Below, one piece after another: positions 36,899 to 64,000 of a stretch of DNA of 64,000 nt. The translations under genes and the position numbers were made by a program. The notes below the pieces were generated by a model. The model did not search any database. It saw only the letters and a program-made list of their open reading frames with translations, and had not been told where the DNA came from. This stretch comes from Allobosea sp. (GTDB taxonomy: Bacteria; Pseudomonadota; Alphaproteobacteria; Rhizobiales; Beijerinckiaceae): the NCBI RefSeq assembly GCF_017308075.1, contig NZ_JAFKFX010000043.1, forward strand, positions 1 through 64,000, in the 5' to 3' direction. How positions within the stretch are numbered: the first letter of the stretch is position 1; each line of letters starts with the position of its first letter.

Positions 36899-36915
36899 GC
36901 AGCCAGCTTTCTTCC

Positions 36916-38991: not shown

Positions 38992-38994
38992 GCC

Positions 38995-48484: not shown

Positions 48485-49735
48485 TCAGGCCGCCCCGATC
48501 TCCGTCAGCCGGCTCATCTGGCTGCGGGTCCAGCGCGGGACATCGTTGCGCTGCCAGACCTGCGAGAGCGCATCCAGGAAGGCGGCCTCGTCCTCATCGG
48601 TGTGGAACGGGTTGGGCGTGACGCGCAGTCGCTCCGTTCCGCGTGGTACGGTCGGGTAGTTGATCGGCTGCACATAGATCCCGTGCTGCTCCATCAATTC
48701 GTCGGTCAGGTGCTTGGCGAGGCCGGCATCGCCGATCATGACCGGCAGGATATGGCTCGGGCTCGGCAGGACGGGAAGCTCCAAAGCCTCCAGCCCGGCC
48801 TTGACCGAACGCACCCGGCGATGAAGCGTCTCGCGCTCCACGGAGCTGGACTTCAGATGCGCGATCGCGGCGCGGACACCGGCGACGGTCGCCGGCGGCA
48901 GCGCCGTCGAGAAGATGAAGCCGGGCGCATGGCTGCGGACGAAATCGACGACCTCCGCCCCGCCGGCGATATAGCCGCCGATCGCGCCAAAACCCTTGCT
49001 GAGCGTGCCCTGGACGATGTCGATGCGGCTCATCAGGCTTTCCGCCTCGGCGATACCCCCGCCACGGGGGCCGTAGAGGCCGACGCTGTGAACCTCGTCG
49101 AGATAGGTCAGGGCGTTGTAGCGCTCGGCGAGATCGCAGATCGCCGCCATGGGCGCGAAGTCGCCATCCATGGAATAGCAGCTCTCGAAGCAGATCAGCT
49201 TCGGCCGGCCGGGCTCGATCGCCTTCAGCTTGCGCTCGAGATCCTCGACGTCATTGTGGCGGAACAGCTTCTTGGCGACGCCGGAACGGCGGATGCCCTC
49301 GATCATCGAGGCATGGTTCAGCGTGTCCGAGAGGACCACGCAATCCGGCAGCAGCCTGACGAGCGTCGAGAGGGCGGCGTCATTGGCGGCATAGCCCGAG
49401 GTGAAGACGAGGGCGGCTTCCTTGGCGTGGAGATCGGCCAAGTCTTCCTCCAGCCGGACATGCTCATGGCTGGTGCCGGAGATGTTGCGCGTGCCGCCCG
49501 CACCGGCCCCGAAGCTCGACAGGGCACTGCGGGCCGCGTCGAGCACGGCCGGATGAACGCTCATCCCGAGATAGTCGTTCGAGCACCAGATCGTCACCGG
49601 CCGCTGGACGCGGTGGTCATAGGCGCGGATCGGGTTGCCGGGCAGGCGCTCGAGATTGGCGAAGACGCGATAGCGCCTTTCGCGTTTCAGGCTGTCCAGC
49701 GCGCCGCTGAAAAAGCGGGAATAATCGAAATCCAT
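48485..49735 (-). CDS. hemA: 5-aminolevulinate synthase
   Basis: A 416-residue ALA synthase (glycine + succinyl-CoA to ALA), PLP fold [57 protein letters not shown] Lys in [14 protein letters not shown], and [19 protein letters not shown] are all present. It is the last gene of a leftward set with glyA 172 bases upstream. ALA synthase is the normal haem entry in alphaproteobacteria, but the company of other PLP enzymes suggests a specialised second copy. The ATG at 49735 fits the family start; the frame is open upstream. Confidence 0.92.
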
Positions 49736-49907
49736 CGTCTCGCCATATGCTTGGCGGCGCCCGTCATGACGCGGCGGGCTCCGCTTGGTTGTGCCGGCGC
49801 CCGGTGCCTGCGACCGCAGCGACCGGTGTGAAGGCATTGCGTCTCCAGCAGGCGCGGCGGCGTTCCGACCGGGCGCCGCCGGAGTTCCGACCGCCATCGG
49901 CTTTAGG

Positions 49908-51143
49908 TCAGGCCGTGACGGGATGGGCGTCGGTCAGACGCCGGATCTCCTCCCTGATCGCGGGCTCGTCGAGGGTCTCGCCGCGCGCGCCGCGCAGGAC
50001 GGCGAGGATGAGCTCGCCGACTGCGCGGAAGGTCTCGGCGTCGAAGCCGCGCGAGGTTCCGGCGGGCGTGCCGAAGCGGATGCCGGAGGTGATGGTCGGC
50101 GGCTGGGGGTCGTAGGGCACGGTGTTCTTGTTGGCGGTCAGGCCGAACCGCTCCAGAGCCTCGATGGCGACCTTGCCGGAAATGCCGAAGGGCTGGAGGT
50201 CGACCAGGAGCAGATGGCAGTCGGTGCCGCCGGTGACGAGCCGCAGCCCGCCGGCGCTGAGCGTCTCGGCGAGGGCCCGGGCATTCTCGACGACAGCCCC
50301 GGAGTAATCCGCGAAGGAGGGCTGCAGAGCTTCGTGAAATGCTGCGGCCTTGCCGGCGATGACATGCATGAGGGGACCGCCCTGCGTGCCCGGGAAGACG
50401 GCCTTGTCGATCTTCCTGGCGATCTCGGCATCATTGGTCAGGATGAGCCCGCCGCGCGGCCCGCGCAGCGTCTTGTGCGTGGTCGAGGTCACGACATGCG
50501 CGTGCGGAACCGGATCGGGATAGAGCCCGGTCGCGATCAGCCCGGCATAATGCGCGACATCGGCGACGAGATAGGCGCCGACCTCGTCGGCGATGGCGCG
50601 CATCCGGGCAAAATCGATGGCGCGCGGATAGGCGGAGCCGCCGGCGAAGATCAGGCGCGGCCGGCTCTCCCTGGCGATGCGCGCCATCTCCTCATAGTCG
50701 ATGAGCTCATCGTCCCTGCGCACTGCATAGGGCACGACCTCGAACCAGCGGCCGGACAGGCTGACCGGCGAGCCATGGGTGAGATGGCCGCCGCAGGACA
50801 GGTCCAGGCCCATGATCCGGTCGCCCGGCTTCAGCAGCGCGAAGAGAACGGCGATGTTGGCGTTGGCGCCGGAATGCGGTTGGACATTGGCGAAGGCCGC
50901 GCCAAACAGCTCGCAGATCCGCTCGATCGCGAGTTGCTCGACCTTGTCGACCGCTTCGCAGCCGCCGTAATAGCGGCGGCCCGGATAGCCCTCGGCATAT
51001 TTGTTGGTCAGGAGCGAGCCCTGGGCGGCGCGGACCGCCCGGCTGACGATGTTCTCCGAGGCGATCAATTCGATATGGCGGTGTTGACGCTCAGCTTCTT
51101 CGGCCAGCGCCGCCGAAAGCGCGGGATCGGGTAGATCGTTCAT
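49908..51143 (-). CDS. glyA: Serine hydroxymethyltransferase, divergent paralogue
   Basis: A 411-residue SHMT, PLP fold I, interconverting serine and glycine with tetrahydrofolate. [44 protein letters not shown] Lys in [15 protein letters not shown] and SGIRFGTPA are conserved. The phosphate-cup motif normally HSGSQAN reads HSGANAN, and LAHGGHLTHG reads [10 protein letters not shown]. These changes fit a paralogue, not the main housekeeping enzyme. The ATG overlaps the amidotransferase stop (ATGA), so the two are translationally coupled. Confidence 0.9.
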
Positions 51144-51874
51144 TTAGACAGTCCTTCGAGCCAATCCGCCAGCATCTGCCGGGCGGCCTCGCGCAGAGCC
51201 GGGCCGAAACGCTCGGCATCCGCACGCAGATTTCGGGGAGCGATCCCGGCCGCCGCCAGCTCGACGGCATGGCCGACCAGCCAGCGCTCGATTCCGGCGC
51301 AGGCATTGACCTCGGGATGGAATTGCAGGCCGAGGACATTGCGGCCAAGCGCGAAGCCCTGCGTCGCGCAGAGCGGCGTCGCGGCGAGATTGTCCGCGCC
51401 CTCGGGGATCTCGAATGCGTCGCCGTGCCAGTGGAGCACCGGGACACCGTCGAGATGGCGCAGCGGGCCGGCGTGGCCGGCCGCCGTCAGGATCAGCTCC
51501 GAGAAGCCGATCTCCTTGACGCCGCTCGGCGCCACCTTTGCGCCGAGCGTCGCGGCGATCTGCTGGGCGCCGAGGCAGATGCCCAGGGTCGGCAGGTTCG
51601 ACGCCAGGCGTGCGGCGAGAATCCGCCGCTCCTGCCTGAGGAAAGGGTAGGTCTCGTCCTCGTAGACGCCGACCGGGCCGCCGAGGACCACGAGCAGCTC
51701 GGGCAGGAGCGGGTCGAGCGTCCAAAGCTCGTTCACGTCGAGGTCGTAGTAATGGATGCGATAGCCGCGTGCCGTCAGCACCGCCTCGAAGGTGCCGAGA
51801 TCCTCGAAATCGAGATGCCGGATGACGATCGCGGTCTTCAGCGTGGCTGGAACTCTCCTGGGCGCTGCGGCCAT
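51140..51874 (-). CDS. Class I glutamine amidotransferase (GuaA-like glutaminase domain, stand-alone)
   Basis: A 244-residue class I GATase. The nucleophile is Cys in [13 protein letters not shown], the triad His and Glu are in LQFHPEVN, and [13 protein letters not shown] is the usual early motif. No synthase domain is attached. It could release ammonia for a partner enzyme or hydrolyse a gamma-glutamyl amide. The ATG at 51874 has AAGGA seven bases upstream; an upstream GTG frame to 51958 is open. Coupled to glyA by a four-base overlap. Confidence 0.85.
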
Positions 51875-51980
51875 CGACAGGTCCTTCACGATCGGGATGC
51901 GCGCTTGCGGGTTCGGGCCCAGCGCTAGATCGCCGCGCGTCCGTTCGGACGCGGTCACGGTGATCTATCTTGTTGTTATT

Positions 51981-52025
51981 GCATCGGAGTTTCCCGAAAA
52001 GTGGATTCCACTTTTCGGTCCGATG
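51981..52025. repeat. Perfectly nested intergenic palindrome
   Basis: GCATCGGA at 51981 and TCCGATGC ending at 52025 flank an inner inverted repeat, CCGAAAAGTGGA and TCCACTTTTCGG. This long hairpin type is recalled as a dispersed element in Rhizobiales genomes; copy number was not checked. It lies in the 253-base gap between psd and the amidotransferase gene, where it could end or process the transcript. The rest of that gap shows no gene. Confidence 0.7.
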
Positions 52026-52127
52026 CTATAGAGCACGCCAGGTGCTGCAGGGCGTGCCGGGTTCGCGAAGGCGGCTGGGCCGGCTCTTGGCGTTGCCGCC
52101 GGCTGGTGGCCTCGAAGGCGGGCGGGG

Positions 52128-52847
52128 TCAGGTGGTCCGGAACACGCGCTGCGTTTTGGCGGTGCTCAGATCCGCGAGCGGGGTCTCGCCGGCAACGGCG
52201 CGCTGGCCGACCGCGACGAGCACATCGCTGCCGACGGGCATATAGACGTCGAGCCTCGAGCCGAAGCGGATCAGGCCGAAGCGCTCGCCGACGGCGAGTT
52301 CGTCGTCCGGCGCGACCCAGTGGACGATGCGGCGCGCGATCAGGCCGGCGATCTGGACGACGGCGATCGGGCCGTGGGCCGAGGCGATCGCCAGGGCATT
52401 GCGTTCATTATGCTCGCTCGCCTTGTCGAGATCGGCGTTGACGAAACGGCCCGGCGTATAGGCGATGCGGCTGACCCGTCCGGCGATCGGCATGCGATTC
52501 ACATGGCAGTCGAAAATGCTCATGAACACGGAGACCCGCAGCATCGGTTTCGCCGGAAGCTGGAGTTCGGGCGGTGGCAGGACCTCGACGATCATGCTGA
52601 CGCGGCCATCTGCGGGAGAGACGATCAGCTCGGCCGATTGCGGCGTCGTGCGCGGGGGATCGCGGAAGAAGTGGATGACCCAGCCGGTGATGATGGCGGC
52701 GATCCAGGCGAGGGCGCTCGAGACGAAACCGGCGGCGATGGTGAGGATCAGGCCGATGGCGATGAAGGGGTAGCCGGCGCGATGGACCGGAACGAGGCTG
52801 CTGCGGATGGAGGCGACGATACTCACGAAAGGCGTTCCTCGAGGCAA
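52128..52847 (-). CDS. psd: Phosphatidylserine decarboxylase proenzyme
   Basis: A 239-residue pyruvoyl enzyme. Two membrane segments near the N-terminus (FIAIGLILTIAAGFVSSAL, WIAAIITGWVIHFF) precede the catalytic domain with IVSPADGRVSMI, VFMSIFDCHVNRMPIAGRV, and the self-cleavage site GS in IRFGSRLDVYMP. It makes phosphatidylethanolamine from phosphatidylserine. The usual partner pssA is not adjacent, unlike the common Rhizobiales psd-pssA pair. It follows the dioxygenase-like gene by 43 bases. Confidence 0.9.
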   Translation of the reverse strand: MPRGTPFVSIVASIRSSLVPVHRAGYPFIAIGLILTIAAGFVSSALAWIAAIITGWVIHFFRDPPRTTPQSAELIVSPADGRVSMIVEVLPPPELQLPAKPMLRVSVFMSIFDCHVNRMPIAGRVSRIAYTPGRFVNADLDKASEHNERNALAIASAHGPIAVVQIAGLIARRIVHWVAPDDELAVGERFGLIRFGSRLDVYMPVGSDVLVAVGQRAVAGETPLADLSTAKTQRVFRTT

Positions 52848-52890
52848 TCGAACAGTCGGGCGAGCGGCCTTGGCTGCGGGGTGCGCAGGA

Positions 52891-53604
52891 TCAGGAATTC
52901 CATTCGGTGGTCTTTCTGAAAGTCATGAGGAGGATGTCCCAGTGGCCGGCCAGCGCCCCCTTGCGCGGGTGGATCGGCGTGATGCCGAGCCTGACGCGGC
53001 GGGGGTCGAGAATGAGGGCTTCGAGGGGCCGCCCAAGGGACAGGGCGGCGATCCTGATGCCGCCTGGCGCGACAAGCTGCGCCATGCCGCCGGCTATGCC
53101 GGAGCGTTTGACGGCGAGCACGACGATCCGCTCGTGGGCCTGGCGATGCAGGGCCCGGAGCGAAGTGCTGGTCCTGTCCGGCCCGGTTTCGACGCGGAGC
53201 TGATGCATTGCGACATGCCAGAGGCTGGCGGCGTCGGCGACGCTGAAAGTCGTTCGCGCGAGCTGCAGGAGTGCGTTGATCAGCGCGCCGCTGGTGGCAT
53301 CGGCCGCCATCGGCGCCACCCCGGTTCCGATCTCACTCGGGAACCGCAAGCGCTCGCCATCCTGAGATTGCGATCTCGGCGTCCGGCGCCAGATGAAATT
53401 CTGGCCGATGAGGAAGACCGCGCCCCGTCGTCGCGCAGAGCCGCCATTGGCGGCGATGCCTTCCTCGATAGGTAGAAGCTCCCAGCTCGCTCTCAGGCGC
53501 GACCATTCGGACAGCGGTCCCGCGCCCAGCAAACCGCGCATGCGAGCGCCGGACATGCGCACGAAGCCGTGCTCGTCCAGTTCCTGTGCGAGCTGGCCGG
53601 GCAT
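52891..53604 (-). CDS. 2OG-Fe dioxygenase family protein (IDO-like) lacking metal ligands
   Basis: A 237-residue protein matching the L-isoleucine-4-hydroxylase-type family (PF10014): GQNFIWRRTPRSQSQDG, WHVAMHQLRVE, ALHRQAHERIVVLAVKRSGIAGGMAQ, LGRPLEALILDPRRVRLGITPIH and WDILLMTF. The catalytic HxD is HRQ, the distal His (normally HGVTP or HAVTP) is Leu in RLGITP, and the 2OG-binding Arg before DILL is Trp. Three of four functional residues are thus lost although the frame is intact. It is probably not an oxygenase. The ATG at 53604 gives the family length; the frame is open to 53766. Confidence 0.7.
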   Translation of the reverse strand: MPGQLAQELDEHGFVRMSGARMRGLLGAGPLSEWSRLRASWELLPIEEGIAANGGSARRRGAVFLIGQNFIWRRTPRSQSQDGERLRFPSEIGTGVAPMAADATSGALINALLQLARTTFSVADAASLWHVAMHQLRVETGPDRTSTSLRALHRQAHERIVVLAVKRSGIAGGMAQLVAPGGIRIAALSLGRPLEALILDPRRVRLGITPIHPRKGALAGHWDILLMTFRKTTEWNS

Positions 53605-54011
53605 TTCCGGATCGCGCCTGCCCGCGGTTTGCGATGCGGCGGAGCCGTCTGGCCCGGGCGCGCCTCGCGATCGGGAGCGGGGTGACCGGGCCGGGCGCGT
53701 GAGGACCGGCAGAGGCGGCGGACGGGTCGCAGTCAAGCTGAACAGGCTCCATCTCCGGAGGAACACGCTCGATGGCTAGGAGCGCAGTGGCCCGGCAGAC
53801 AGGTCCGGTTTGCAGAAATGCGAGGAGCCGGTCGGGCGAGCCGCCTCGGCTCCGGCACCGAACCGGCCCAGCGCCGCGTTGTGATCCGGCGCTTCAATCC
53901 GCCCGGCGCACGGTCGAATCTCGGCTTCTCCCATGAGCCCGCGGCCCGGTCGGCAGATCGTCGGGCGGAAGCGGCGCTCTGCGCCGCCCGAGCCGCTCAA
54001 AAGGCAGACAC
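53605..54011. other. Divergent control region of the PLP-enzyme island
   Basis: This 407-base gap separates the leftward set (dioxygenase-like to hemA) from the rightward set (serC to trpB) and should hold both promoters. It is GC-rich; no convincing -10/-35 pair, operator palindrome or known riboswitch was seen. Short open frames here look like chance. Confidence 0.5.
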
Positions 54012-55214
54012 GTGTCCAATCAGCCGATCAAGCCGACCGAACGTCCGCGCAATCCGCATTTCTCGTCGGGGCCCTCCGCCAAGCGCTATGGCTGGGGGCC
54101 GGCGGTGTTGAGCGAGGCCCTCATCGGCCGCTCGCATCGATCGGTGCCCGGCAAGGCCAAGCTCGCTGAGGTGATCGGCCGGACGCGCGCCATTCTGGGC
54201 GTGCCGGAGGATTATCGCATCGCCATCGTTCCCGCCTCGGATACCGGTGCGGTCGAGATGGCGCTGTGGTCGCTGCTCGGGCCGCGCGGCGTCGATGTCC
54301 TCGCCTGGGAGAGCTTCGGGCAGGAATGGGTGAGCGACATCACCACGCAGCTTCGGATCGCGGACACCCGCGTGATGACCGCCGCCTATGGCGCATTGCC
54401 CGATCTCGGGCAGGTCGATGCCGCGCGCGACGTCGTCTTCACCTGGAACGGCACGACCTCGGGCGTGCGCGTGCCGAATGGCGACTGGATCGCCGATGAT
54501 CGCGCCGGGCTGACGATCTGCGATGCGACCTCGGCTGCTTTCGCCATGGACCTACCCTGGCGCAAGCTCGATGTCGTCACCTGGTCCTGGCAGAAGGTGC
54601 TCGGCGGCGAAGGCGCCCATGGCATGCTGGTGCTCGGCCCGCGTGCGGTCGAGCGGCTCGAGAGCCATGTGCCGCCCTGGCCGATGCCCAAGCTTTTCCG
54701 CATGACCAAGGGCGGCAGGCTGATCGAGACGATCTTTGAAGGCGAGACCATCAATACGCCCTCCCTGCTGGCGGTGGAGGATGCGATCGACGGGCTGGCC
54801 TGGGCCGAGGAGCTCGGTGGACTGCCCGCGCTGATCAGGCGCTGCGAGGGCAATCTCGCCATCGTCTCGGATTGGGTGCAGCGCAGCGCATGGGCCGGGC
54901 TCCTGGCGCAGAACGCCGAGACGCGGTCCTGCACCGCGCTCTGTCTCCAGATCGTTGCGCCGGAAGTGCGGGCGCTCGACGCAGCCGAGCAGGGGCGCTT
55001 CGTGTCGAAGATGGTCGCGCTGCTCGATCGGGAGGGGGTGGCTTACGATATCGGCGCCTACCGCGCGGCGCCGCCCGGGCTGAGGCTCTGGGGCGGGGCG
55101 ACGGTCGAGAATGCCGATATGAAGGCGGTGCTGCCCTGGCTCGATTGGGCTTATGAGACGGTCCGCCTCGACGGGGTGCCCGGCCGACCGGTCCCGGCAG
55201 CGGCGCTCGCCTGA
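54012..55214 (+). CDS. serC: Phosphoserine aminotransferase
   Basis: A 400-residue SerC of the alphaproteobacterial type (TIGR01365), PLP fold I. It transfers an amino group to 3-phosphohydroxypyruvate. RNPHFSSGPSAKRYGW, IVPASDTGAVEMALW, FTWNGTTSGVRVPNGDWI, DATSAAFAMDLPW and PLP Lys in TWSWQKVLGGEGAHG are clear. The start is GTG at 54012 after AAGG. Housekeeping serC normally precedes serA in this group; serA is absent here. First gene of the rightward set. Confidence 0.92.
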   Translation: MSNQPIKPTERPRNPHFSSGPSAKRYGWGPAVLSEALIGRSHRSVPGKAKLAEVIGRTRAILGVPEDYRIAIVPASDTGAVEMALWSLLGPRGVDVLAWESFGQEWVSDITTQLRIADTRVMTAAYGALPDLGQVDAARDVVFTWNGTTSGVRVPNGDWIADDRAGLTICDATSAAFAMDLPWRKLDVVTWSWQKVLGGEGAHGMLVLGPRAVERLESHVPPWPMPKLFRMTKGGRLIETIFEGETINTPSLLAVEDAIDGLAWAEELGGLPALIRRCEGNLAIVSDWVQRSAWAGLLAQNAETRSCTALCLQIVAPEVRALDAAEQGRFVSKMVALLDREGVAYDIGAYRAAPPGLRLWGGATVENADMKAVLPWLDWAYETVRLDGVPGRPVPAAALA

Positions 55215-55218
55215 GCCG

Positions 55219-56364
55219 ATGATCGCCCTGTCCGCCACCGAGGTCGGAAGCGCCGCCGGCGAGTCCGGTCATCAGGTCGATGATGGTCGCGGCATGGTCC
55301 GGATCTCGCTTGCGGCGATCCGGGCCAATTATCGCGCGATCACCGATCGCATCGCGCCCGCGCGCTGCGGGGCGGTGCTCAAGGCCGATGCCTATGGGCT
55401 CGGCATCGGGCGGATCGCGCCGGCATTGTACGAGGCGGGGTGCCGCGAGTTCTTCGTCGCGGTGCTGGCCGAGGCGCTGGCGCTGAAGCTCCTGCTTCCC
55501 GGCGACGCCGTGATCCATGTGCTGAACGGCCTCATGCCGGGCCAGGAGGCGGCCTGTGCCGCAGCCGGCATCCGCCCGGTCCTCAACAGCCTCGCCCAGG
55601 CGAGGGCCTGGGCAGGCCATGGCGCCGTCTCCGGGAATGGCAGCGGTGCCGTCCTGCAGCTCGACAGCGGCATGTCGCGCATGGGCCTGCCCCCGGAGGA
55701 ATGGCAGGCCCTTGCGGCAGATCGCCAACTGGTCGAGCGGCTCGGCCTGGCGCTGGTCATGAGCCATCTTGCGGTGGCGGACGAGCCGGAGCATCCCGGC
55801 AATGCCCTGCAGCTGGCGGCCTTCAAGGCGGCGGCCGCGCAATTCCCGGCCATGCCGCGCTCGCTGGCGAACTCGGCGGGGATCTTCCTCAGCCCGGCCT
55901 ATCATTTCGAGCTTTGCCGGCCGGGCGCCGCCCTCTACGGCCTGGTCGCGTCTCCCCGGATGCCGCGGCTCGATCCCGCGGTCGCCGTCTACGGGCGGAT
56001 CGTGCAGCTCCGCTCGATCGCGCCCGGCACGATGGTCGGCTATGGCTGGGCCTTCCGGGCGCGCCGCGAGACCCGCGTCGCGACGGTTTCGGTGGGCTAT
56101 GCCGACGGGTTCCTGCGCTTCGCCAGCGACCGCGGCGCGGTCTGGCTCGGCGCTCACCGCCTGCCCGTCATCGGGCGCGTCTCGATGGACTGCCTGACCG
56201 TCGACGCCACTGACGTATCGGCGGACCGGATCGGACCCGGCGACTATGTCGAGATCATCGGCCCCCACCAAACGGTCGAGGGAATGGCCGGTGATGCCGG
56301 CACGATCAATTACGAGATCTTGACCAGCCTCGGATCACGCTATCGGCGGGTCCATGTCGATTAG
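55219..56364 (+). CDS. alr: Alanine racemase-family enzyme
   Basis: A 381-residue fold III PLP racemase. PLP Lys is in AVLKADAYGLGIG (normally VVKANAYGHG). QLDSGMSRMGL, MSHLAVADEPEHPGN, SLANSAGIFL and RPGAALYGLV follow, with the second catalytic Tyr in VGYADGFLR and the GRVSMDCLTVDAT segment. It starts five bases after serC. Substrate could be Ala, Ser or another amino acid; the ND and HL changes around the Lys suggest divergence from housekeeping Alr. ATG 55294 is an alternative start. Confidence 0.88.
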   Translation: MIALSATEVGSAAGESGHQVDDGRGMVRISLAAIRANYRAITDRIAPARCGAVLKADAYGLGIGRIAPALYEAGCREFFVAVLAEALALKLLLPGDAVIHVLNGLMPGQEAACAAAGIRPVLNSLAQARAWAGHGAVSGNGSGAVLQLDSGMSRMGLPPEEWQALAADRQLVERLGLALVMSHLAVADEPEHPGNALQLAAFKAAAAQFPAMPRSLANSAGIFLSPAYHFELCRPGAALYGLVASPRMPRLDPAVAVYGRIVQLRSIAPGTMVGYGWAFRARRETRVATVSVGYADGFLRFASDRGAVWLGAHRLPVIGRVSMDCLTVDATDVSADRIGPGDYVEIIGPHQTVEGMAGDAGTINYEILTSLGSRYRRVHVD

Positions 56365-57616
56365 CGGCGAGAAGGCCGAGGTCGACGCCTCGGCACACAT
56401 CCCAGCCGGATCGGAGCCGCGCGCCGCGACGGCCTCGCCGACCGCCAGCCCCTCAGCCACGGATCTGAACGCCATGCACGGCATTCTCCTGTTCGATGTG
56501 AAAAAGCAGCTCTCTCTGCTGCGGCCTGAGATCGATCGGCGCATCGCCGAGGTGATCGATTCCGGGGTGTTCATCAACGGCCCGCAGGTGCGCGAATTCG
56601 AGGCCAGGCTCACGGAATTCGCCGGCTGTGCCCATGCGGTCGGGGTTTCCTCGGGCACCCACGCCCTGCAGATCGCCCTGATGGCGGAAGCGATCGGGCC
56701 GGGCGATGCGGTGTTCCTTCCGGCCTTCACCTATACCGCGACGGCGGAAGTGCCGCTCCTGCTGGGAGCGACCCCGGTCTTCGCCGATGTGGATACGGAC
56801 ACCTTCAACCTCAGCGTCGCCGATCTCGAACGACGGATCGCGCTGGTCAAGCAGGATGGGCGTCTTCGCCCGCGCGCCGTGATCGGGGCCGACCTGTTCG
56901 GGCTCCCGGCCGACTGGCCGGCGATCGAGGCGATCTGCGCCCGCGAGGGGATGCTCGCGCTCGACGATGCCGCGCAGTCCTTCGGGGCCGAGCTCGACGG
57001 ACGCAGGATCGGCCGCCATGGCCATGCGACCACCCTGTCATTCTTTCCGACCAAGACGCTCGGGGCGTTCGGCGATGCCGGCACGCTCCTCACCGATGAC
57101 GGGGCGCGGGCTGAAACCTACCGGAAAATCCGCAGTCATGGCGAGCGGGCCCGTTACGAGGTCGAGCGCATCGGGGTCAATGGGCGGATCGACACGATCC
57201 AGGCGACCATCCTCTCGGCCAAGATGACGCTGCTCGAAGCGGAGCTCGCCGAGCGCCGGCGGATCGCCGCCGTCTACGATGCGATCCTGGAAGGCAGGGT
57301 CGGCCTGCAGCGGGCTCAGCCCGGGGCGGTGAACGCCTATGGGCTCTACACCATCCGCCTGCCCGATATCGCGGTCCGTGCCACGGTCCAGGCGGCGCTG
57401 TCGGCGCAGGGCATCGGGTTCGGCGTCTATTATCCGAAGCCGATGCACCACCAACTGGCCTATGCCCGGATCCATCAGGACGCGATCAGCGGCGGCCCGC
57501 CGGCCCTGCCCAACAGCGAGGCCCTGTGCAGCCAGGTCCTGTCCTTGCCGATGAACCCCTATATGAGCGAGGGCGATGCGGAGCGGGTGGCCGCGATCGT
57601 CGGCGCCGCCGCATGA
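56354..57616 (+). CDS. DegT/DnrJ/EryC1-type aminotransferase
   Basis: A 420-residue PLP fold I aminotransferase of the sugar-aminotransferase class, WbpE/WecE-like. The PLP Lys is in LSFFPTKTLGAFGDAG (usual FFPxKxLG). Other motifs are GVSSGTHALQIAL, FLPAFTYTATAEVPLLLG, LALDDAAQSFGAELDG, and YYPKPMHHQLAY. The first 45 residues are a Ser/Ala/Pro-rich extension not seen in the family. It overlaps alr by 11 bases. Family members aminate keto-sugars or, more rarely, other ketones. Confidence 0.9.
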   Translation: MSISGEKAEVDASAHIPAGSEPRAATASPTASPSATDLNAMHGILLFDVKKQLSLLRPEIDRRIAEVIDSGVFINGPQVREFEARLTEFAGCAHAVGVSSGTHALQIALMAEAIGPGDAVFLPAFTYTATAEVPLLLGATPVFADVDTDTFNLSVADLERRIALVKQDGRLRPRAVIGADLFGLPADWPAIEAICAREGMLALDDAAQSFGAELDGRRIGRHGHATTLSFFPTKTLGAFGDAGTLLTDDGARAETYRKIRSHGERARYEVERIGVNGRIDTIQATILSAKMTLLEAELAERRRIAAVYDAILEGRVGLQRAQPGAVNAYGLYTIRLPDIAVRATVQAALSAQGIGFGVYYPKPMHHQLAYARIHQDAISGGPPALPNSEALCSQVLSLPMNPYMSEGDAERVAAIVGAAA

Positions 57617-57666
57617 TGCCGCGCCAGCCATCCCGGCGCCGATCAGGGGTACGGGGAGCGGCCTAG

Positions 57667-57683
57667 CGGTTTTCGCAAAACCG
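57667..57683. terminator. Small hairpin between the DegT-like and sufS genes
   Basis: CGGTTTT (57667-57673), loop CGC, AAAACCG (57677-57683). No T tract follows. It may attenuate or separate the two halves of the rightward set; the 181-base gap otherwise shows nothing. Confidence 0.3.
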
Positions 57684-57797
57684 GTTCTCCGTCCGGGGCC
57701 ACGGGGCTCTTAACCTCCTCGCAACCTCGCGCCGCCGTCCGCCGGGGCGAGAGCTTCCTCGTCGATCCCTTGGCGCGAAGACAGGTCCCGCGAAGCA

Positions 57798-59039
57798 ATG
57801 AACCAGCCGACCCCATCCTATGACGTTGCGGCCGTGCGGGCCGGTTTCCCGATCCTTGCCCGGCAGGTCTATGGGCGCCCGCTCGTCTATCTGGACACGG
57901 CCGCCTCGGCGCAAAAGCCGCGCGAGGTGACGCAGGCGATGCTCGACCTGATCGAGAACGACTACGCCAATGTCCATCGTGGCCTGCATTTCCTGGCCAA
58001 TCGCGCGACCGAGGTCTACGAGGGCGCCCGCGAAACCGCGCGGCGCTTCATCAACGCGTCGTCCGCGCAGGAGGTGATCTTCACCCGCTCCGTCACCGGA
58101 GCGCTCAATCTCGTCGCCTCCTCGCTGGGGCGCCATCTCGAGATCGGCGCGGGCGACGAGATCGTGCTCTCCGAGATGGAGCATCATTCCAATATCGTGC
58201 CCTGGCATTTCTGGCGCGAGCGTCATGGCGCCGTGATCCGCTGGGCTCCGGTCGACGAGGCCGGCGCACTCGACGTCGAAGCGCTGGAAGAGCTGCTGTC
58301 GCCGCGTACGAAGCTGGTCTCGCTCACCCATATGTCGAATGTGCTCGGCACGGTCGCGCCGATCCGGCGCATCGCGGAGCTCTGCCGCGCCCGCGGTATT
58401 CCGCTCGTCGTCGACGGCGCTCAGGGAGCGGTTCACCTGCCGCTCGACGTGCAGGCGCTCGGCGCCGATTTCTACTGCTTCACCGGTCACAAGATCTACG
58501 GGCCGACCGGCATCGGCGTGCTCTATGGACGGATGGAATGGCTCGAGCGGCTGCCGCCCTTCGAGGGCGGCGGCGAGATGGTCGAGACCGTCACCAAGGA
58601 GATGGTGACCTACAATCATCCGCCGCACCGCTTCGAGGCGGGCACGCCGCCGATCATCGAGGCGGCCGGGCTCGCGGCGGCGCTCGACTATGTCGAGCGG
58701 CTTGGGCGCGAGGCCATTCACGCCCATGAGGCGACATTGACGGACTATGCCCAGGCCCGGCTGGAGGCGTTCGGCGGTGTTGCCTTCTACGGTCGTGCCG
58801 CCGGGAAGGGCTCGATCGTCGCCTTCAATCTCGAGGGCGCGCATGCGCATGACGTCGCGACGATCCTCGACCGGGCTGGGGTCGCGGTGCGCGCCGGAAC
58901 CCATTGCGCCTCGCCGCTCCTCGCCAGGTTCGGGGCGACCTCGTCCTGCCGTGCCTCATTCGGGCTCTACAGTACCAAAGACGAGGTCGACGCCCTGATC
59001 GAGGCGCTGGCGACGGCCCGGCGGCTTCTGCTGCAATGA
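57798..59039 (+). CDS. sufS: SufS-type cysteine desulfurase
   Basis: A 413-residue group II cysteine desulfurase, PLP fold [60 protein letters not shown] Lys in [19 protein letters not shown] and the persulfide Cys in [11 protein letters not shown] are all present. It makes a protein-bound persulfide from cysteine or acts on selenocysteine. No sufBCDE genes are nearby, so it is not in an Fe-S assembly operon. The stop overlaps trpB by four bases. Confidence 0.92.
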
Positions 59040-60244
59040 ACGCGGCAGGGCTGAACTCGCTGCGCAACGGGCCCGACGAGAACGGGCGCTTCGGGATCTA
59101 TGGCGGGCGCTTCGTCTCCGAGACGCTGATGCCGCTGATCCACACCCTCCAGGACGCCTATGAGCAGGCGCGCGGCGATGCGGACTTCCTGGCCGAGATG
59201 CAGGGGCACCTCAAGAGCTTCGTCGGCCGGCCCTCGCCGCTCTACCATGCCGAGAATCTAAGCGCGCATCTCGGCGGCGCCCGGATCTATTTCAAGCGCG
59301 AGGACCTGAATCATACCGGGGCGCACAAGGTCAACAATGTGCTCGGGCAGATCATGCTGGCCCGGCGCATGGGCAAAAGACGCATCATTGCCGAGACCGG
59401 GGCGGGGATGCATGGCGTCGCTGCGGCGACGCTCTGTGCCCGGTTCGGGCTCGACTGCGTGGTCTATATGGGCGCGGTCGATGTCGGGCGCCAGGAAGCG
59501 AATGTCGCCCGGATGCGCATGCTTGGCGCGGAGATTCGCCCGGTTCAATCGGGTTCGGCGACGCTCAAGGATGCGATGAACGAAGCCCTGCGCGACTGGG
59601 TGACGAATGTCGGCGACACCTTCTACTGCATCGGCACGGTGGCCGGACCGCACCCCTATCCGATGATGGTCCGCGACTTCCAGTCGGTCATCGGCGAGGA
59701 GACGCGCCGGCAGGTGATCGAGCGCGAGGGCCGCCTGCCGGACGCGCTGCTCGCCTGCATCGGCGGCGGTTCGAACGCGATGGGGCTGTTCCATCCCTTC
59801 CTGGACGATGTCGCAGTCGAGATTTTCGGGGTCGAGGCGGCCGGGCTCGGACTCGACCGGGCCCATGCCGCCGCCATCGCCGGCGGGCGCCCCGGCGTGC
59901 TGCATGGCAATCGCACCTATCTGCTGATGGATGAGGATGGCCAGATCCAGGACGCCCATTCGCTTTCGGCGGGGCTGGATTATCCGGGCATCGGCCCCGA
60001 GCATGCCTGGCTGCACGATATCGGCCGGATCACCTATCTCGCGGCCAGCGATGAGGAAGCCGTCGAAGCCTTCGAGCTGTGTTCGCGACTCGAGGGCATC
60101 ATCCCGGCGCTGGAGGCCGCGCACGCGCTGGCGCGCCTGCCGGAGATCGCGGGATCGCGGCCGAAAGACCAGATCGTCGTCCTGGGTCTGTCCGGCCGGG
60201 GCGACAAGGATCTGCCGACGGTCCTGTCCCGCCGGAAATCGTAG
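59036..60244 (+). CDS. trpB: Tryptophan synthase beta chain, lone paralogue
   Basis: A 402-residue TrpB, PLP fold II, which joins indole to L-serine. PLP Lys is in [14 protein letters not shown], the Glu in [59 protein letters not shown] and SGRGDKDLP. The conserved GAGQHG carboxylate loop reads GAGMHG. There is no trpA or trpF nearby, unlike the housekeeping operon. It may use another nucleophile. ATG overlaps sufS (ATGA), so the two are co-translated. The frame is open upstream. Confidence 0.9.
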
Positions 60245-60496
60245 AGCGGGACCTCTGAACGCACCCGCCGGCCAGGAAACTCGATCATAGCCGCAACAGG
60301 CCTGCTGCAAGGCATAACGACCGTGCTAGGCTGCATGCAGCGGTCGGCTGCCTGGTCTCGTTACGGGAGTCGGGCGGGCCGCGAGAAGGGCCGGACCGGC
60401 CATGGTGGCGCAAGTGTTCCGGCCTGCCTGAAAACCTCGATCCGGCTGGTAACAGGAGCCGGCTCGGCTGCTATTCAGGATCTGGCAATGCCTCCC

Positions 60497-60570
60497 GGCC
60501 GGGTGGCGGAGTGGCGACGCGGCGGACTGCATATCCGCAAACCCTGGTTCAAATCCAGGCCCGGCCTCCA
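60497..60570 (+). tRNA. tRNA-Cys (anticodon GCA)
   Basis: A 74-base tRNA with encoded CCA. The acceptor GGCCGGG (60497-60503) pairs with CCCGGCC (60560-60566). The anticodon arm GCGGA-CTGCATA-TCCGC carries GCA, the T arm is CCTGG-TTCAAAT-CCAGG, and the end is TCCA. It stands alone, after the rightward PLP-enzyme set. No integrase or duplicated tRNA end was seen in the window, so there is no direct sign that an element used it for integration. Confidence 0.95.
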
Positions 60571-60637
60571 GCAATCAACCCCGGAAGCGCTGGGTGGAAC
60601 GCCTGCGTTCCGCCCCTCTTCATTCAATGGGATTGCG

Positions 60638-61321
60638 ATGCTCCTGATCGACGATGTCCTGGCGGGTCCGGTTGCGCCGCTGGGGCCGCAAGGGAAACCG
60701 AGCGGTATCGACAAGACGCCGGTCAGCGGCAAGATCCATGTCGGCATCGAGGGGCTCGCCAATGACGAGCAGGGCGACCGCAAACATCATGGCGGGCCTG
60801 AAAAGGCACTGCATCACTATGCTTTCGAGCACTACGCCATCTGGCGGAGGGAGATCGGCCCGAAACGCGTCCTGGCCGCTCCCGGTGCTTTCGGCGAGAA
60901 TCTGACGACCACAGGGCTGACCGAGGACATGGTCGCGGTCGGCGATACCTTCCGGCTGGGGAAGATCGTCATCCAGGTCAGCCAGGGCCGCCAGCCCTGC
61001 TGGAAGCTGAACGCCAGGTTCGAGGTTCCGGATATGGCGGTGCGTGTCCAGCGTACCGGATTGACCGGCTGGTACTATCGGGTGATCGAAACCGGTCATA
61101 TCGAGAAGGGCGACGAGCTTCGCCTCATCGACAGGCTCTCGCCGGACTGGACGCTGCGCAGGATCTGGCGAACCCTCTATGTCGACACCATGAATATCGA
61201 CGAGCTCGCGGCGATGTCCGAGCTCGCGCATCTCCCCGAAGGCTGGCGCGGCTACGCCAAAAGGCGACTGGCAACCCGGCAGGTCGAGGATTGGTCGCGC
61301 CGCTTGACGGGCGCGTCCTGA
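60638..61321 (+). CDS. MOSC-domain protein
   Basis: A 227-residue MOSC protein, YiiM-like. GIEGLANDEQGDRKHHGGPEKALHHYAFEHYAIW, GAFGENLTTTGLTEDMVAVGD and the Cys in SQGRQPCWKLNARF, presumably the sulfur-carrying residue, are typical, followed by a C-terminal helical 3-alpha domain. MOSC proteins of this class handle sulfur or N-hydroxylated compounds with a molybdenum cofactor. The frame is open upstream across the tRNA, so the ATG at 60638 was chosen. Confidence 0.88.
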   Translation: MLLIDDVLAGPVAPLGPQGKPSGIDKTPVSGKIHVGIEGLANDEQGDRKHHGGPEKALHHYAFEHYAIWRREIGPKRVLAAPGAFGENLTTTGLTEDMVAVGDTFRLGKIVIQVSQGRQPCWKLNARFEVPDMAVRVQRTGLTGWYYRVIETGHIEKGDELRLIDRLSPDWTLRRIWRTLYVDTMNIDELAAMSELAHLPEGWRGYAKRRLATRQVEDWSRRLTGAS

Positions 61322-61382
61322 AGACGCGTTTCGGAAAGTGGCCCGGGACTGATCATTGGCTGAGTTGTCAGCACGCCAGCTG

Positions 61383-61410
61383 CCGGCCGGCCGAATGGCC
61401 GGCCGGTCTT
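61383..61410. terminator. Strong hairpin between convergent genes
   Basis: CCGGCCGGCC (61383-61392), loop GAAT, GGCCGGCCGG (61397-61406), then TCTT. A ten-pair GC stem between the MOSC gene and the convergent aminotransferase gene; it probably ends both transcripts. Confidence 0.7.
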
Positions 61411-61417
61411 CATAACT

Positions 61418-62665
61418 TCAAGGGCGCAGACCGAGCGTGGCTGAAGACGACGCAGCCTCCGGCTTGCCGGGCCTGGACTGGCGGGAACCGGATTTGCCGC
61501 GCAGTGCCGTGCAGGCGGCCTGGATGCGGCGGGCCGCTTCCTTGATCTCACGCGGGCGGACTGTCAGTGGCGGCGCAAACCGGACCACACCGTCGCGTGC
61601 GGGAACCGACAGCATCCGCTCGGCATGCAAGGCATGCACGAGTTCGAGCGGATCGCCATGCAAGCGCAATCCCTGCAGGAGCCCGGCGCCGCGCACATCG
61701 CAGATCAGCTCGCCGTGCTGCCGCTGGATCCCAACCAGGAGTTCGCGGAAAAGCTCGGCCATCTCCAGGACATGCTCGAAGAACCCGGCGTCGAGAACGA
61801 TGTCCAGCACGGCGTTGCCGACGGCCATGGCCAGCGGGTTGCCACCGAAGGTCGTGCCATGCGATCCCGGCAGCATGCCCTTGGCCGCCTCGCGCGTGGC
61901 CAGGCAAGCGCCCATCGGGAAGCCGCCGCCGATCCCCTTGGCCAGTGTGACGATGTCGGGCTTTATGCCGCTCCATTCATGAGCGAAGAGCTTGCCGGTT
62001 CGGCCGACGCCGGATTGGACCTCGTCCAGGATGAGCAACAGGCCGCGTTCGTCGCAGATCTGGCGCAGCCGGATCAAGATCTCCGGTTCGACCGTGCGCA
62101 AGCCGCCTTCGCCCTGCACGGGCTCGAGCATGATCGCCGCGGTCTGCGCCGACAGCAGCGCGTCGAGCCCCTGCCAGTCGCCCAGCACGGCCTGATCGAA
62201 GCCGTCGACCTTGGGGCCGAAACCCTCAAGATATTTCGCATAGCCGGTGGCGGCGATCATCGCCAGCGAGCGGCCATGAAAGGCGCCGTCGAAGGTCACG
62301 ACGCGGTAGCGCTCGGGCCGGCCTGTCGCCGAATGATGTTTCCGGGCCATCTTGACCGCGGCCTCATTGGCCTCGCCGCCGGAGTTGGCGAAGAAGACGA
62401 CATCCGCGAAGCTCGCCTCGGTCAGCCGCTGCGCCAGCCTTTCGGCCTCGGGCACCCGGACCAGGTTCGAGGTATGCCAAAGCTTGCCGGCCTGGGTCTT
62501 GAGCGCCCTGATCAGGCGCGGATGGCCGTGGCCGAGCGCATTGACGGCGATGCCGGAGGCGAAGTCGAGATAGCGCTCGCCGCTCTGCGAATAGAGCCAG
62601 CTTCCCCGGCCGAATTCGAAGGCGAGTTCAAAGGGCGAGGCGACGGGCAGCAGAGGACGGGTCAT
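61418..62665 (-). CDS. Class III aminotransferase, acetylornithine aminotransferase-like
   Basis: A 415-residue PLP fold I class III aminotransferase. YLDFASGIAVNALGHGHP, FFANSGGEANEAAVKMAR, FDGAFHGRSLAMIAATG, LLILDEVQSGVGRTGKLFA, PLP Lys in IVTLAKGIGGGFPMGA and GSHGTTFGGNPLAMAV are close to ArgD. It would act on acetylornithine or a similar omega-amino acid. No arg genes are adjacent, so it is likely another lone copy in this PLP-rich region. The ATG at 62665 has GAGG upstream and agrees with the family; the frame is open to 62860. Confidence 0.88.
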   Translation of the reverse strand: MTRPLLPVASPFELAFEFGRGSWLYSQSGERYLDFASGIAVNALGHGHPRLIRALKTQAGKLWHTSNLVRVPEAERLAQRLTEASFADVVFFANSGGEANEAAVKMARKHHSATGRPERYRVVTFDGAFHGRSLAMIAATGYAKYLEGFGPKVDGFDQAVLGDWQGLDALLSAQTAAIMLEPVQGEGGLRTVEPEILIRLRQICDERGLLLILDEVQSGVGRTGKLFAHEWSGIKPDIVTLAKGIGGGFPMGACLATREAAKGMLPGSHGTTFGGNPLAMAVGNAVLDIVLDAGFFEHVLEMAELFRELLVGIQRQHGELICDVRGAGLLQGLRLHGDPLELVHALHAERMLSVPARDGVVRFAPPLTVRPREIKEAARRIQAACTALRGKSGSRQSRPGKPEAASSSATLGLRP

Positions 62666-62923
62666 CCAAGGCGCCTCGCATGGGAGGATTGGTCGAATCC
62701 GGGGCATGGCGCCCCGACGTGTTTCAGATGAGACAAGAGCGAATCCTCCGGCAAGGCAGCGTCTGGAACGCCGCTCGTACCGGCCCCGGGGGCTGGCCGG
62801 CAGGTCCGGGTCGCCGAATTTCGATAGGCCGGAAGGGTCTTCGCGACAGAATGGACGCAAATCTGTGCCGAATGTCGCAGTTTCTTGCGTGTCCGGTTCT
62901 GCCGTAGGCGGTTGCCAGTCGGG

Positions 62924-63475
62924 CTATCCGATCGTGCAGGCGGTCTCGGAGCAGCCGTCCTTCTCGGCGCCGTTCGGATCCGCGACGAGCGAGGTATCCG
63001 GGGGCTCGCCGATCAGGGCTGCGATTTCGGCGCCGAGCTGCAGATCGGGCAAATGGCCGAAGACCTGGCGGCGCAAGCGGCCGGCCCTGTCGATGAGAAG
63101 CAGCGTCGGGGTGCCCTGCATCCGGTAGCGCTGCATGGTGATGGGCAGGGGATCGTCCGGTCCCGTCGCGCGGTCGACGCCGACAGGGTAGGCGACCCGG
63201 TATTCATGGAGAAAGGCTTCGAGCGAAACCGGCCGCATCGCCGCGTGATGCTCGAAGACCGTGTGGAGACCGATCACCTGCACATGCTTGTTCGGGAAGA
63301 TCCGGTGGACCTGCGCCAATTGCGGCAGCAGATGCGAGACGCAGCCGGGGCAGAGCATCTGAAAGGCGCCTGCGACGACGACCCTGCCGCGAAGGGATGC
63401 AAGATCGACCGGGCGCGGCGTGTTGAACCAGCGCTCGATCTCCCAGTCCGGCGCAACCTGCGATTGGGGGCTCAT
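62924..63475 (-). CDS. Redoxin/TlpA-like thioredoxin-fold protein
   Basis: A 183-residue thioredoxin-fold protein with the redox motif FQMLCPGCVSH (CPGC), VIGLHTVFEHH, a cis-Pro in GTPTLLLIDRAGRL, and a C-terminal tail with two more Cys (GCSETACTIG). There is no signal peptide, so it acts in the cytoplasm, probably as a peroxiredoxin or thiol reductase. It diverges from the MarR gene, whose operator-like palindromes lie in between, and is likely under its control. Confidence 0.82.
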   Translation of the reverse strand: MSPQSQVAPDWEIERWFNTPRPVDLASLRGRVVVAGAFQMLCPGCVSHLLPQLAQVHRIFPNKHVQVIGLHTVFEHHAAMRPVSLEAFLHEYRVAYPVGVDRATGPDDPLPITMQRYRMQGTPTLLLIDRAGRLRRQVFGHLPDLQLGAEIAALIGEPPDTSLVADPNGAEKDGCSETACTIG

Positions 63476-63547: not shown

Positions 63548-63616
63548 TCAACCGCTGGCGACGTTGCAGGCGTGGGAGACGCAAGGTCGCGGCGAATGGA
63601 AGCCGATGCCGTTCAT
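63548..63616 (-). CDS. Possible 22-residue peptide upstream of the redoxin gene
   Basis: A short frame starts MNGIGFHSP and ends ACNVASG, with Cys12 and Cys17. GGGAG lies seven bases before the ATG (63614-63616), a near-ideal ribosome site. It sits 72 bases upstream of the redoxin start and downstream of the operator region, so it would be the first frame on that transcript. It could be a leader peptide or a chance frame; no family is recognised. Confidence 0.4.
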   Translation of the reverse strand: MNGIGFHSPRPCVSHACNVASG

Positions 63617-63658
63617 GAGGCTCTCCCGCTCATGCCTGATGATAGATCGACATGAAAT

Positions 63659-63715
63659 ATTAGGAGTGCTAATTCTATTATCGACGTCAGTCAATGATAA
63701 ATTAGGAGTCCGAAT
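63659..63715. promoter_or_regulatory. Two operator-like palindromes of the MarR regulator
   Basis: ATTAGGAGTGCTAAT (63659-63673) is a perfect inverted repeat ATTAG-N5-CTAAT. ATTAGGAGTCCGAAT (63701-63715) is the same with one mismatch in the right arm. The starts are 42 bases apart, four helical turns, so two dimers would bind the same face. The second site covers the ribosome site of the MarR gene. The patch is AT-rich in a GC-rich genome. Confidence 0.7.
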
Positions 63716-63716
63716 T

Positions 63717-64000
63717 TTGGCCGCGATTTTCGATGCGATAAGCGAGCCGATCGCGCGACGGGTGACGGCTGGGCTGGCGAAGATCGGCGGAGTCTTGCGC
63801 AGCCACGCCTGGAAAGGCGCGGGTGCGGCAGGGGTGACGCCAACCCAGGGCCAGGCGCTCGGCCTGCTGCGGGAAGCGCCCGATGGCATGCGGCTGGCGG
63901 AACTCGCCGGCATGCTCGGCATCTCCGCGCCGACCGCCAGCGAAGCCGTCACCTCCCTGGTCCAGAAGGGGCTCGCGGTGAAGGCTCCGGGGCCGGACAG
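63717..64000 (+). CDS. MarR-family transcriptional regulator, cut by window edge
   Basis: The frame runs off the window after about 94 residues. From TTG at 63717 it reads LAAIFDAISEPIARRVTAGL and then a MarR-type winged helix: TPTQGQALGLLREAP, MRLAELAGMLGISAPTASEAV and SLVQKGLAVKAP. AGGAG lies eight bases upstream of the TTG. The palindromes at 63659-63715 suggest it represses itself and the divergent redoxin gene. The C-terminal half is missing, so its sensor residues cannot be judged. Confidence 0.75.
   Translation, partial: MAAIFDAISEPIARRVTAGLAKIGGVLRSHAWKGAGAAGVTPTQGQALGLLREAPDGMRLAELAGMLGISAPTASEAVTSLVQKGLAVKAPGPD

Follow-up and report, generated by a model that had tools for sequence, protein, structure and literature searches.

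Duplication of the target is a known form of defence, and tolerance of cyanide is commonly put down to resistant oxidases together with detoxification. Here we analyze an island of spare enzymes that depend on pyridoxal 5'-phosphate (PLP) or on a pyruvoyl group, found on contig NZ_JAFKFX010000043.1 of Allobosea sp. (assembly GCF_017308075.1), and compare it with the closest described systems. The first 64 kb of this 78,041-base contig (C28, in a genome of 5.55 Mb and 62 contigs) are referred to below as the window.

Amino-acid enzymes within cio clusters are already known: in the accessible descriptions, the cio cluster of Pseudomonas pseudoalcaligenes CECT5344 comprises SerC, HisC, ArgD, CysM, CysI, Nit4 and mocR (PMC11049912). 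SerC, HisC and ArgD of this strain are marked R in a table comparing cyanide-containing jewelry waste with ammonium (PMC8567248); by our own reading of the accessible part of that paper the mark means found solely with the waste, HisC being found also with 3-cyanoalanine. A mocR mutant is said there to express the cio cluster constitutively, a result cited as unpublished (PMC8567248). In Pseudomonas aeruginosa cyanide induces ccoN4, a gene for an orphan oxidase subunit, through the MocR-type regulator MpaR, and the authors of that work proposed that MpaR binds PLP cyanohydrin (PMC10790758, accessible part). As to the enzymes themselves, the accessible text of a review describes formation of PLP-CN by cyanide and inhibition of the PLP enzymes glutamate decarboxylase (GAD) and GABA transaminase (PMC9291117), and a proteome under cyanide plus mercury showed raised cysteine desulfurase and alanine racemase, discussed in the accessible text under mercury (PMC10433974).

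An island of PLP and pyruvoyl enzymes

Eight PLP enzymes and phosphatidylserine decarboxylase (Psd) lie inside 14 kb of the window, all of the named genes having open frames (Table 1). Families were called with NCBIfam and Pfam models at curated cut-offs, applied to 58 of the 59 predicted window proteins and to all but one full-length prediction beyond the window; the gene prediction was crude and missed at least a shikimate kinase. Above the NCBIfam cut-offs were 5-aminolevulinate synthase (ALAS), serine hydroxymethyltransferase (SHMT), the class I glutamine amidotransferase (GATase) PRK07053, Psd, SerC type 2, alanine racemase (Alr), SufS, TrpB and an ArgD-type acetylornithine transaminase, and above those of Pfam PF10014 and Aminotran_3. 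The initial annotation, made from the letters and their open reading frames, had described eight PLP enzymes within 14 kb, four-base overlaps and a degenerate 2-oxoglutarate (2OG) dioxygenase homologue, and all three descriptions held. The frames are open and match family models, both junctions read ATGA (GATase/glyA at 51140-51143, sufS/trpB at 59036-59039), and the dioxygenase homologue has HRQ and RRVRLG where an intact one has HRD and RRVRHG, the altered residues being presumably metal ligands.

If PLP enzymes are assumed to make up 1.5-3% of genes, and the stretch is assumed to have 12 genes and 5300 places to fall, at least eight among 12 neighbors would be expected by chance 6e-9 to 1.5e-6 times per genome. 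In the aligned pairs of ALAS, SHMT, SerC, SufS and Psd the catalytic motifs are intact, and the presumed Schiff-base lysines are kept in ALAS, SHMT, SerC and SufS. Because of these motifs the five probably work as enzymes.

Psd had been listed as a companion of the PLP enzymes, yet it proved to be no outsider. Its cofactor is a pyruvoyl group formed from its own serine, and carbonyl reagents such as cyanide trap the ketone of this group just as they trap the PLP aldehyde. As the pyruvoyl cofactor carries a reactive carbonyl, Psd should share the weakness of the PLP enzymes. The common denominator of the island is chemical, not metabolic; GATase, the MOSC protein and the dioxygenase homologue fall outside it.

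The GC content of the island (66-70%) is the same as that of the remainder of the window, and a chromosomal site is suggested by the genes for shikimate kinase and 3-dehydroquinate synthase that lie at 27-29 kb. A tRNA-Cys gene within the island is a possible integration site; a repeat search around its 3' end found neither a second copy nor a flanking repeat. Since the listed MOSC frame opens before this tRNA gene and runs through it, the true MOSC start lies further downstream. The stretch from 48.4 to 62.9 kb showed no transporter.

Table 1. Features of the island and of the genes that follow it; positions are those of the contig, which begins with the window.
Feature	Position	Strand	Family model or other evidence
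5-aminolevulinate synthase (ALAS/HemA), second copy	48485..49897	-	TIGR01821, 591 bits; likely start 49735
Serine hydroxymethyltransferase (GlyA/SHMT), second copy	49908..51143	-	NF000586
Class I glutamine amidotransferase (GATase) PRK07053	51140..51958	-	NF005458; likely start 51874
Phosphatidylserine decarboxylase (Psd), pyruvoyl enzyme, second copy	52128..52847	-	NF003677
2OG-Fe dioxygenase homologue, degenerate	52891..53766	-	PF10014; alignment with intact homologue
Phosphoserine aminotransferase SerC type 2, second copy	54012..55214	+	NF002841/TIGR01365
Alanine racemase (Alr), second copy	55153..56364	+	TIGR00492; likely start 55219
DegT/DnrJ-family aminotransferase	56354..57616	+	PseC-like transaminase models, below cut-off only
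SufS cysteine desulfurase, second copy	57798..59039	+	TIGR01979
Tryptophan synthase beta chain (TrpB), second copy, without trpA	59036..60244	+	TIGR00263; start 59036
MOSC/YiiM-domain protein	60323..61321 (listed frame)	+	PF03473, PF03475
tRNA-Cys(GCA), within island	60497..60570	+	ARAGORN
ArgD-type class III aminotransferase, second copy	61418..62860	-	NF002325, TIGR00707
AhpC/TlpA-type thiol-disulfide protein	62924..63475	-	PF00578
MarR-family regulator	63564..64000, continuing to contig 64370	+	PF12802
HTH-cupin, TctC receptor, GST, class II aldolase	64448-67479 (64.4-67.5 kb)		
PdxR-type MocR	67768-69207	+	NF052282, 345 bits (cut-off 320)
Pyridoxal kinase	about 1.7 kb from MocR	-	TIGR00687, 215 bits (cut-off 144.5)
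COX1 (CtaD), heme O synthase (CtaB), pyridoxal kinase, lactate-permease-like protein	past MocR	-	

Second copies elsewhere in the genome

The whole genome was searched with eight island enzymes (ALAS, SHMT, SerC, Alr, SufS, TrpB, ArgD and Psd), and all eight have a second copy, with one clear counterpart each at 42-73% identity; seven of them are PLP-dependent and one, Psd, is pyruvoyl-dependent. More distant family members (25-43%) also surface in some of these searches. Read by Pfam scan, the neighbors of the counterparts are their usual company in seven cases out of eight. SHMT (64%, contig C4) has an nrdR gene 1.1 kb downstream, TrpB (73%) lies beside phosphoribosylanthranilate isomerase (trpF), SerC (59%) is followed by phosphoglycerate dehydrogenase (serA) and ArgD (57%) by ornithine/aspartate carbamoyltransferase (argF). 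Alr (42%, contig C15) adjoins dnaB, SufS (67%) is beside a SufBD protein and an Fe-S assembly protein, Psd (60%, contig C43) adjoins a CDP-alcohol phosphatidyltransferase of pssA type, and the ALAS counterpart (58%) is on contig C46.

A search of the same genome at E<=1e-70 returned only the island gene for GATase. The 42% relative of DegT, in a polysaccharide-type cluster, was not counted as a second copy. Two of 67 genomes in the genus have a second Alr, this one and G163 (one genome had no Alr at the limit used); the G163 gene was rejected as a sign of an island, its context being D-amino-acid catabolism.

The initial annotation had weighed a metabolite pathway against a set of spare targets for a broad PLP-enzyme inhibitor of the cycloserine type, and had taken sole copies, in a gene order seen by chance only in this strain, as the mark of merely rearranged housekeeping genes. 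As every searched enzyme has another copy, including the hemA, glyA, serC, alr, trpB, sufS and psd for which it had advised a search, rearranged housekeeping is rejected and the spare targets are favored, with a second Alr nearly unique in the genus in further support.

Genes beyond the window

Limits of 48485..62665 had been drawn for the island, and these were too narrow: after MOSC, ArgD, AhpC/TlpA and MarR come the genes for MocR, pyridoxal kinase, CtaB and COX1, at 67.8-74.5 kb of the contig. A MocR/PdxR-type regulator, pyridoxal kinase, an aa3 oxidase subunit and heme O synthase thus lie within 12 kb past the window. As in a PdxR-MocR regulon of vitamin B6, the PdxR-type regulator has a B6-salvage gene close by. 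COX1, CtaB and the pyridoxal kinase gene all run in one direction; if 72801 is taken as the CtaB start, the gaps between them are 76 and 73 bases. With this COX1 the genome has three aa3 copies; it is 80% identical to that of the complete cox operon and 77% to the copy on contig C39. Neither coxB nor coxC was found between it and the contig end, where an AraC-type regulator and a transposase lie, and for this reason COX1 looks like an orphan subunit.

The C39 copy (C39:32861-34411), a CtaD-like subunit I, stands beside a XdhC/CoxI-family gene and a Tim44-domain protein, with no coxB or coxC recognized in the open reading frame list. An operator-motif search, made with no control run, gave only short or weak shared upstream words, such as ATAGATCAC before GATase and MocR. 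Two perfect palindromes, CCGAAAAGTGGATTCCACTTTTCGG upstream of GATase (51994-52018) and CGGTTTTCGCAAAACCG upstream of SufS (57667-57683), are possibly repeat elements.

Relatives on plasmids and in other genomes

Plasmid relatives were sought by tblastn against 72,556 plasmid records, and matching regions were inspected individually. The conjugative plasmid pAtl-11c of Agrobacterium fabrum L-11 carries MocR (61%), thioredoxin, GATase (74%), SHMT (78%), YggS and PdxY (60%), its GATase likewise adjoining glyA. Behind pdxY lies an unannotated, C-terminal ALAS remnant, 61% identical to the island copy (L116:22775-23107). This module ties the MocR and PdxY beyond our window to the GATase-SHMT-ALAS set within it. 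MocR, GATase, SHMT, PdxY and the ALAS remnant are what the two loci have in common; the A. fabrum module differs in its compactness, in giving no match to any further spare PLP enzyme of the set, and in the major facilitator superfamily (MFS) gene that follows it. GATase was near MocR in all three plasmid records with a C28-type MocR at >=58% identity.

Pseudomonas BYT-1 plasmid pBYT1-1 and the IncC-typed pKAZ5 both carry MocR, BenE, YggS, GATase, a B6 kinase, an ArgD-like protein, TrpB, TrpA, GlyA and LysR, with the operon order YggS-(GNAT)-GATase-pdxK-argD-trpB-trpA-glyA. They resemble the island in having GATase, SHMT, TrpB, an ArgD-type enzyme and a B6 kinase next to MocR. They differ in that identities are only 34-60%, in having trpA, YggS, BenE and LysR of their own, and in lacking a match to ALAS, Alr, SufS or Psd. 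On p1 of Prescottella equi WH99 (p1-WH99), some 35 kb hold glyA, a TrpB-like gene, ilvA, gabT, aminotransferases, YggS, SerC (60%), hisC and trpBA, together with a PfkB-type kinase (41% to PdxK) and three MocR-like proteins. Variovorax CP063167 has the HTH-cupin, TctC, GST and aldolase string (51-67% to that of C28; L133:5889-8963), directly followed by GATase and MOSC.

Among 385 genomes of the class, 11 had GATase at E<=1e-70. Nine of the ten matches outside our own genome were inspected (L137-L145): two have an adjoining SHMT (74-75%) and MocR, and three (L137, L139 and L140) an adjoining MarR-AhpC pair, one of these near cydAB. DegT matched 82 of 298 family genomes at E<=1e-60; besides our own, only G014 exceeds 47% (70%), with its gene at a contig end and no further island genes there. 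A DegT scan of genome contigs gave 14 loci, the best full-length match being 44%, and none had two island genes. Gene order was conserved as a single block in none of the loci examined; the relatives share the theme of PLP enzymes and no single fixed gene set.

Several plasmid regions were opened and rejected as islands: five of seven for SerC (of 24 records; Azospirillum thermophilum, Methylorubrum CM4, Deinococcus, Rhizobium tumorigenes and Sphingomonas), both of those opened for Psd (of 49), the one opened for Alr (of 214), and two of three for SHMT (among the 60 of 242 records listed), both of these being sarcosine-oxidase operons. GATase matched 37 plasmid records, of which six were opened besides the A. 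fabrum plasmid. The Variovorax CP063168 region held no island, and in Rhizobium SSA_523 and A. brasilense MocR adjoins GATase, but without spare PLP enzymes of the set. DegT matched 234 records, ALAS 177 and TrpB 119, the TrpB list being used solely to choose pKAZ5. Plasmid p3 of Novosphingobium ES2-1 (L109:3492-16192) carries sulfite reductase, metB, thioredoxin, TlpA, an intact PF10014 dioxygenase and MOSC, with superoxide dismutase and peroxiredoxin.

Comparison with plasmid cioAB loci

Of 449 plasmid CioA records, five loci were inspected. A MocR-type gene lies near four of the five, the K84 locus having none annotated, and hemA occurs in two, Agrobacterium sp. T29 and Roseomonas gilardii. 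The T29 plasmid (NZ_CP040642.1) carries hemA (55%), a siroheme-type reductase, HisC, SerC (64%), ArgD (50%), MocR, a nitrilase-like protein and cytochrome bd. Subunit I of this cytochrome shares 81% identity with a Roseomonas CioA and 74% with the CioA of a P. aeruginosa plasmid. The R. gilardii plasmid has hemA-MocR-cioAB, and in Methylocystis cioAB-MocR adjoins nit1C-like genes, which we take to be relevant to cyanide. On pUSP1 of Aminobacter MSH1, cioAB-MocR is near an annotated ATCA hydrolase (L166:20315-20872), ATCA being a product of cyanide and cystine. MocR with SerC and ArgD paralogues, traits of cioAB-type clusters, is thus present in our island as well, with a MocR of a different lineage.

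Other genes in the window

Cas1 and a large Cas9-like gene (HNH_4 and RuvC_III domains) lie at 627-4973, and SoxZ and SoxY genes adjoin a molybdopterin-binding subunit and a 2Fe-2S protein at 14361-18629. At 34048-39741 are amino-acid-type ABC transporter genes, an AstE/AspA-type deacylase and a PALP enzyme, which we take to be possibly a hydroxyectoine-type catabolic cluster. Right before the island, at 41966-47200, are a phosphonate-type ABC transporter (Phosphonate-bd protein, ATPase and two permeases), a HAD hydrolase and a DeoR regulator.

Discussion

Spare copies, their linkage and their recurrence on mobile DNA were demonstrated here. We consider it very probable that, in general terms, the island is a backup of carbonyl-cofactor enzymes. 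More specifically, we somewhat favor an acquired island under MocR control that backs up enzymes against a carbonyl-trapping poison, with cyanide the foremost candidate; taken separately, cyanide as the agent stands at about even. Control by the C28 MocR and the identity of the poison are what we infer.

In such a scheme HCN would add to the PLP aldehyde and the pyruvoyl ketone, and many core steps would be blocked simultaneously. The PLP-binding MocR/PdxR-type regulator might sense the damaged cofactor and switch the island on, whereupon the spare ALAS, SHMT, SerC, Alr, SufS, TrpB, ArgD and Psd would keep haem, one-carbon units, serine, cell wall, Fe-S clusters, tryptophan, arginine and phosphatidylethanolamine supplied. 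Pyridoxal kinase would regenerate PLP, and the orphan aa3 subunit with heme O synthase could cover cyanide's other classic target. Growth would go on, protected either through dosage or through a lower sensitivity of the copies. GATase is perhaps a gamma-glutamyl hydrolase.

The foremost rival keeps the backup principle and replaces cyanide by an organic PLP inhibitor, environmental or made by a neighbor (cycloserine, canaline, a hydrazine or aminooxy amino acid, or a B6 antimetabolite). We regard it as unlikely, though it draws on several observations: Alr is among the spares, the pBYT1-1 and pKAZ5 operons combine MFS and BenE transporters with YggS, a B6 kinase, ArgD-like protein, TrpBA and GlyA, the P. 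equi WH99 set includes amidases and a glutamine-synthetase-like protein, and GATase could strip a gamma-glutamyl conjugate. Such an inhibitor does not predict a spare COX1/CtaB by the pyridoxal kinase gene or the parallel with cioAB clusters, Psd is not an expected target of a B6 antimetabolite, and the stretch of the island searched for a transporter yielded none. Psd, the downstream MocR, pyridoxal kinase and oxidase genes and the cioAB parallel are why we prefer cyanide to an agent of the cycloserine type; the broad inhibitor first suggested for this locus stands, and cycloserine-type agents recede as the likeliest example.

Hydroxylamine, or a related N-hydroxy compound, attacks the PLP and pyruvoyl carbonyls and also haem, and MOSC/YiiM proteins are linked to N-hydroxylamine tolerance, so that the island's MOSC protein might be part of a reductase removing the poison; the P. 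equi set includes a non-canonical purine NTP pyrophosphatase, which would also suit this agent. Nitrification and hydroxylamine-oxidizing families were absent from the family scans of the contig, and we hold this version of the backup principle to be improbable.

Neutral accumulation, in which transferred housekeeping duplicates became clustered by chance, is in keeping with the lack of a conserved block, with the uniform base composition and with ALAS and ArgD copies that are not specially close to those linked to cioAB. It leaves unexplained a single cofactor chemistry, for which chance allows at most about 1e-6 per genome under the assumed frequencies, as well as the PLP-enzyme sets of other lineages, and it too has little likelihood.

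DegT aminotransferases, GATases and dioxygenases are common in biosynthetic clusters and all three kinds are represented here, but a pathway recruiting primary enzymes to an amino-acid-derived metabolite, given equal place at first, gained nothing and is the least probable reading, because Psd and all but one of the eight PLP enzymes score above cut-off for ordinary primary-metabolism models, the motifs of five aligned families are intact, the dioxygenase homologue is without its presumed metal ligands, the relatives keep the PLP theme and not one gene set, and the island has no ligase, NRPS, PKS or exporter. As regards self-resistance of a producer, NRPS, PKS and amide-ligase families were absent from the scanned contig proteins, the rest of the genome not being searched.

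A number of points weigh against cyanide; the general backup reading is independent of them, whereas the identity of the agent does depend on them. Cytochrome bd, nitrilase and rhodanese families were absent from the family scans of contig proteins, the rest of the genome not being searched. The C28 MocR shares no more than 25-27% identity with those adjoining cioAB, the island ALAS is 54-55% identical to cioAB-linked hemA products against 58% to its own other copy, and ArgD is 48-50% identical to that of T29 against 57%. SerC matches that of T29 (63-64%) slightly better than it does the second SerC of the genome (59%), and is closest on Azospirillum plasmids (68-71%), the single one of which opened holds no island. 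The T29 CydAB and C28 COX1 probes matched nothing in the stretches from pBYT1-1, pKAZ5, A. fabrum and P. equi, and the MFS transporters on pBYT1-1, pKAZ5 and the A. fabrum plasmid suit an organic toxin better. The cyanide reading does not account for DegT, for the degenerate dioxygenase or for the HTH-TctC-GST-aldolase string, and the orphan COX1 may be an independent neighbor. In the accessible text of the review, the GAD IC50 of 280 uM is judged high and its physiological relevance doubted (PMC9291117), and according to the accessible description the jewelry waste given to CECT5344 holds metals too (PMC8567248).

In open-access PMC text we found no account of a chemically unified island that combines eight spare PLP/pyruvoyl enzymes and B6 salvage, or of its mobile relatives. 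PMC10653877 contains no PLP terms, and the accessible text of another paper names a different BYT-5 plasmid, without these genes (PMC10488154). The wider proposal is of a recurrent mobile class of islands, assembled independently in several lineages, that protect along lines of cofactor chemistry and not of pathway, with spare PLP/pyruvoyl enzymes and B6 salvage placed under a MocR that senses the adduct of poison and PLP, and so bypass HCN or another carbonyl trap at many targets at a time; for this we see the arguments as balanced. If it is true, loss of PLP and pyruvoyl enzymes would be a second selectable part of the toxicity of cyanide or another carbonyl poison, which mobile DNA counters with entire sets of backup enzymes. 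It would give a reason for the amino-acid enzymes in cio clusters and suggest a function for some of the 'extra' hemA, glyA, serC and trpB genes of plasmids, and the order in which PLP enzymes fail under cyanide would become directly testable.

Among known systems, the T29 cio island, which is carried by a conjugative plasmid, is alike in uniting hemA, SerC, ArgD and MocR. It differs in its CioA-type oxidase and nitrilase-like gene, in a MocR of a lineage other than that of C28, and in having no match to SHMT, GATase, Alr, SufS, TrpB or Psd in its stretch. The CECT5344 cio cluster (P. oleovorans; BN5_1899-1912), compared by its accessible description, shares SerC and ArgD (with HisC and CysM in addition), which belong there to a cluster linked to MocR and observed with cyanide waste. 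Its cioAB, nitrilase, CysI, HisC, DapA and MetF were not found here, and our island has ALAS, SHMT, Alr, SufS, TrpB, Psd, GATase, MOSC, pyridoxal kinase and an aa3 subunit beyond what is described there. The MpaR-ccoN4 system, although its subunit is of cbb3 and not aa3 type and the accessible part of its description does not mention a backup of PLP enzymes, likewise joins a PLP-binding regulator of MocR type to an orphan oxidase subunit.

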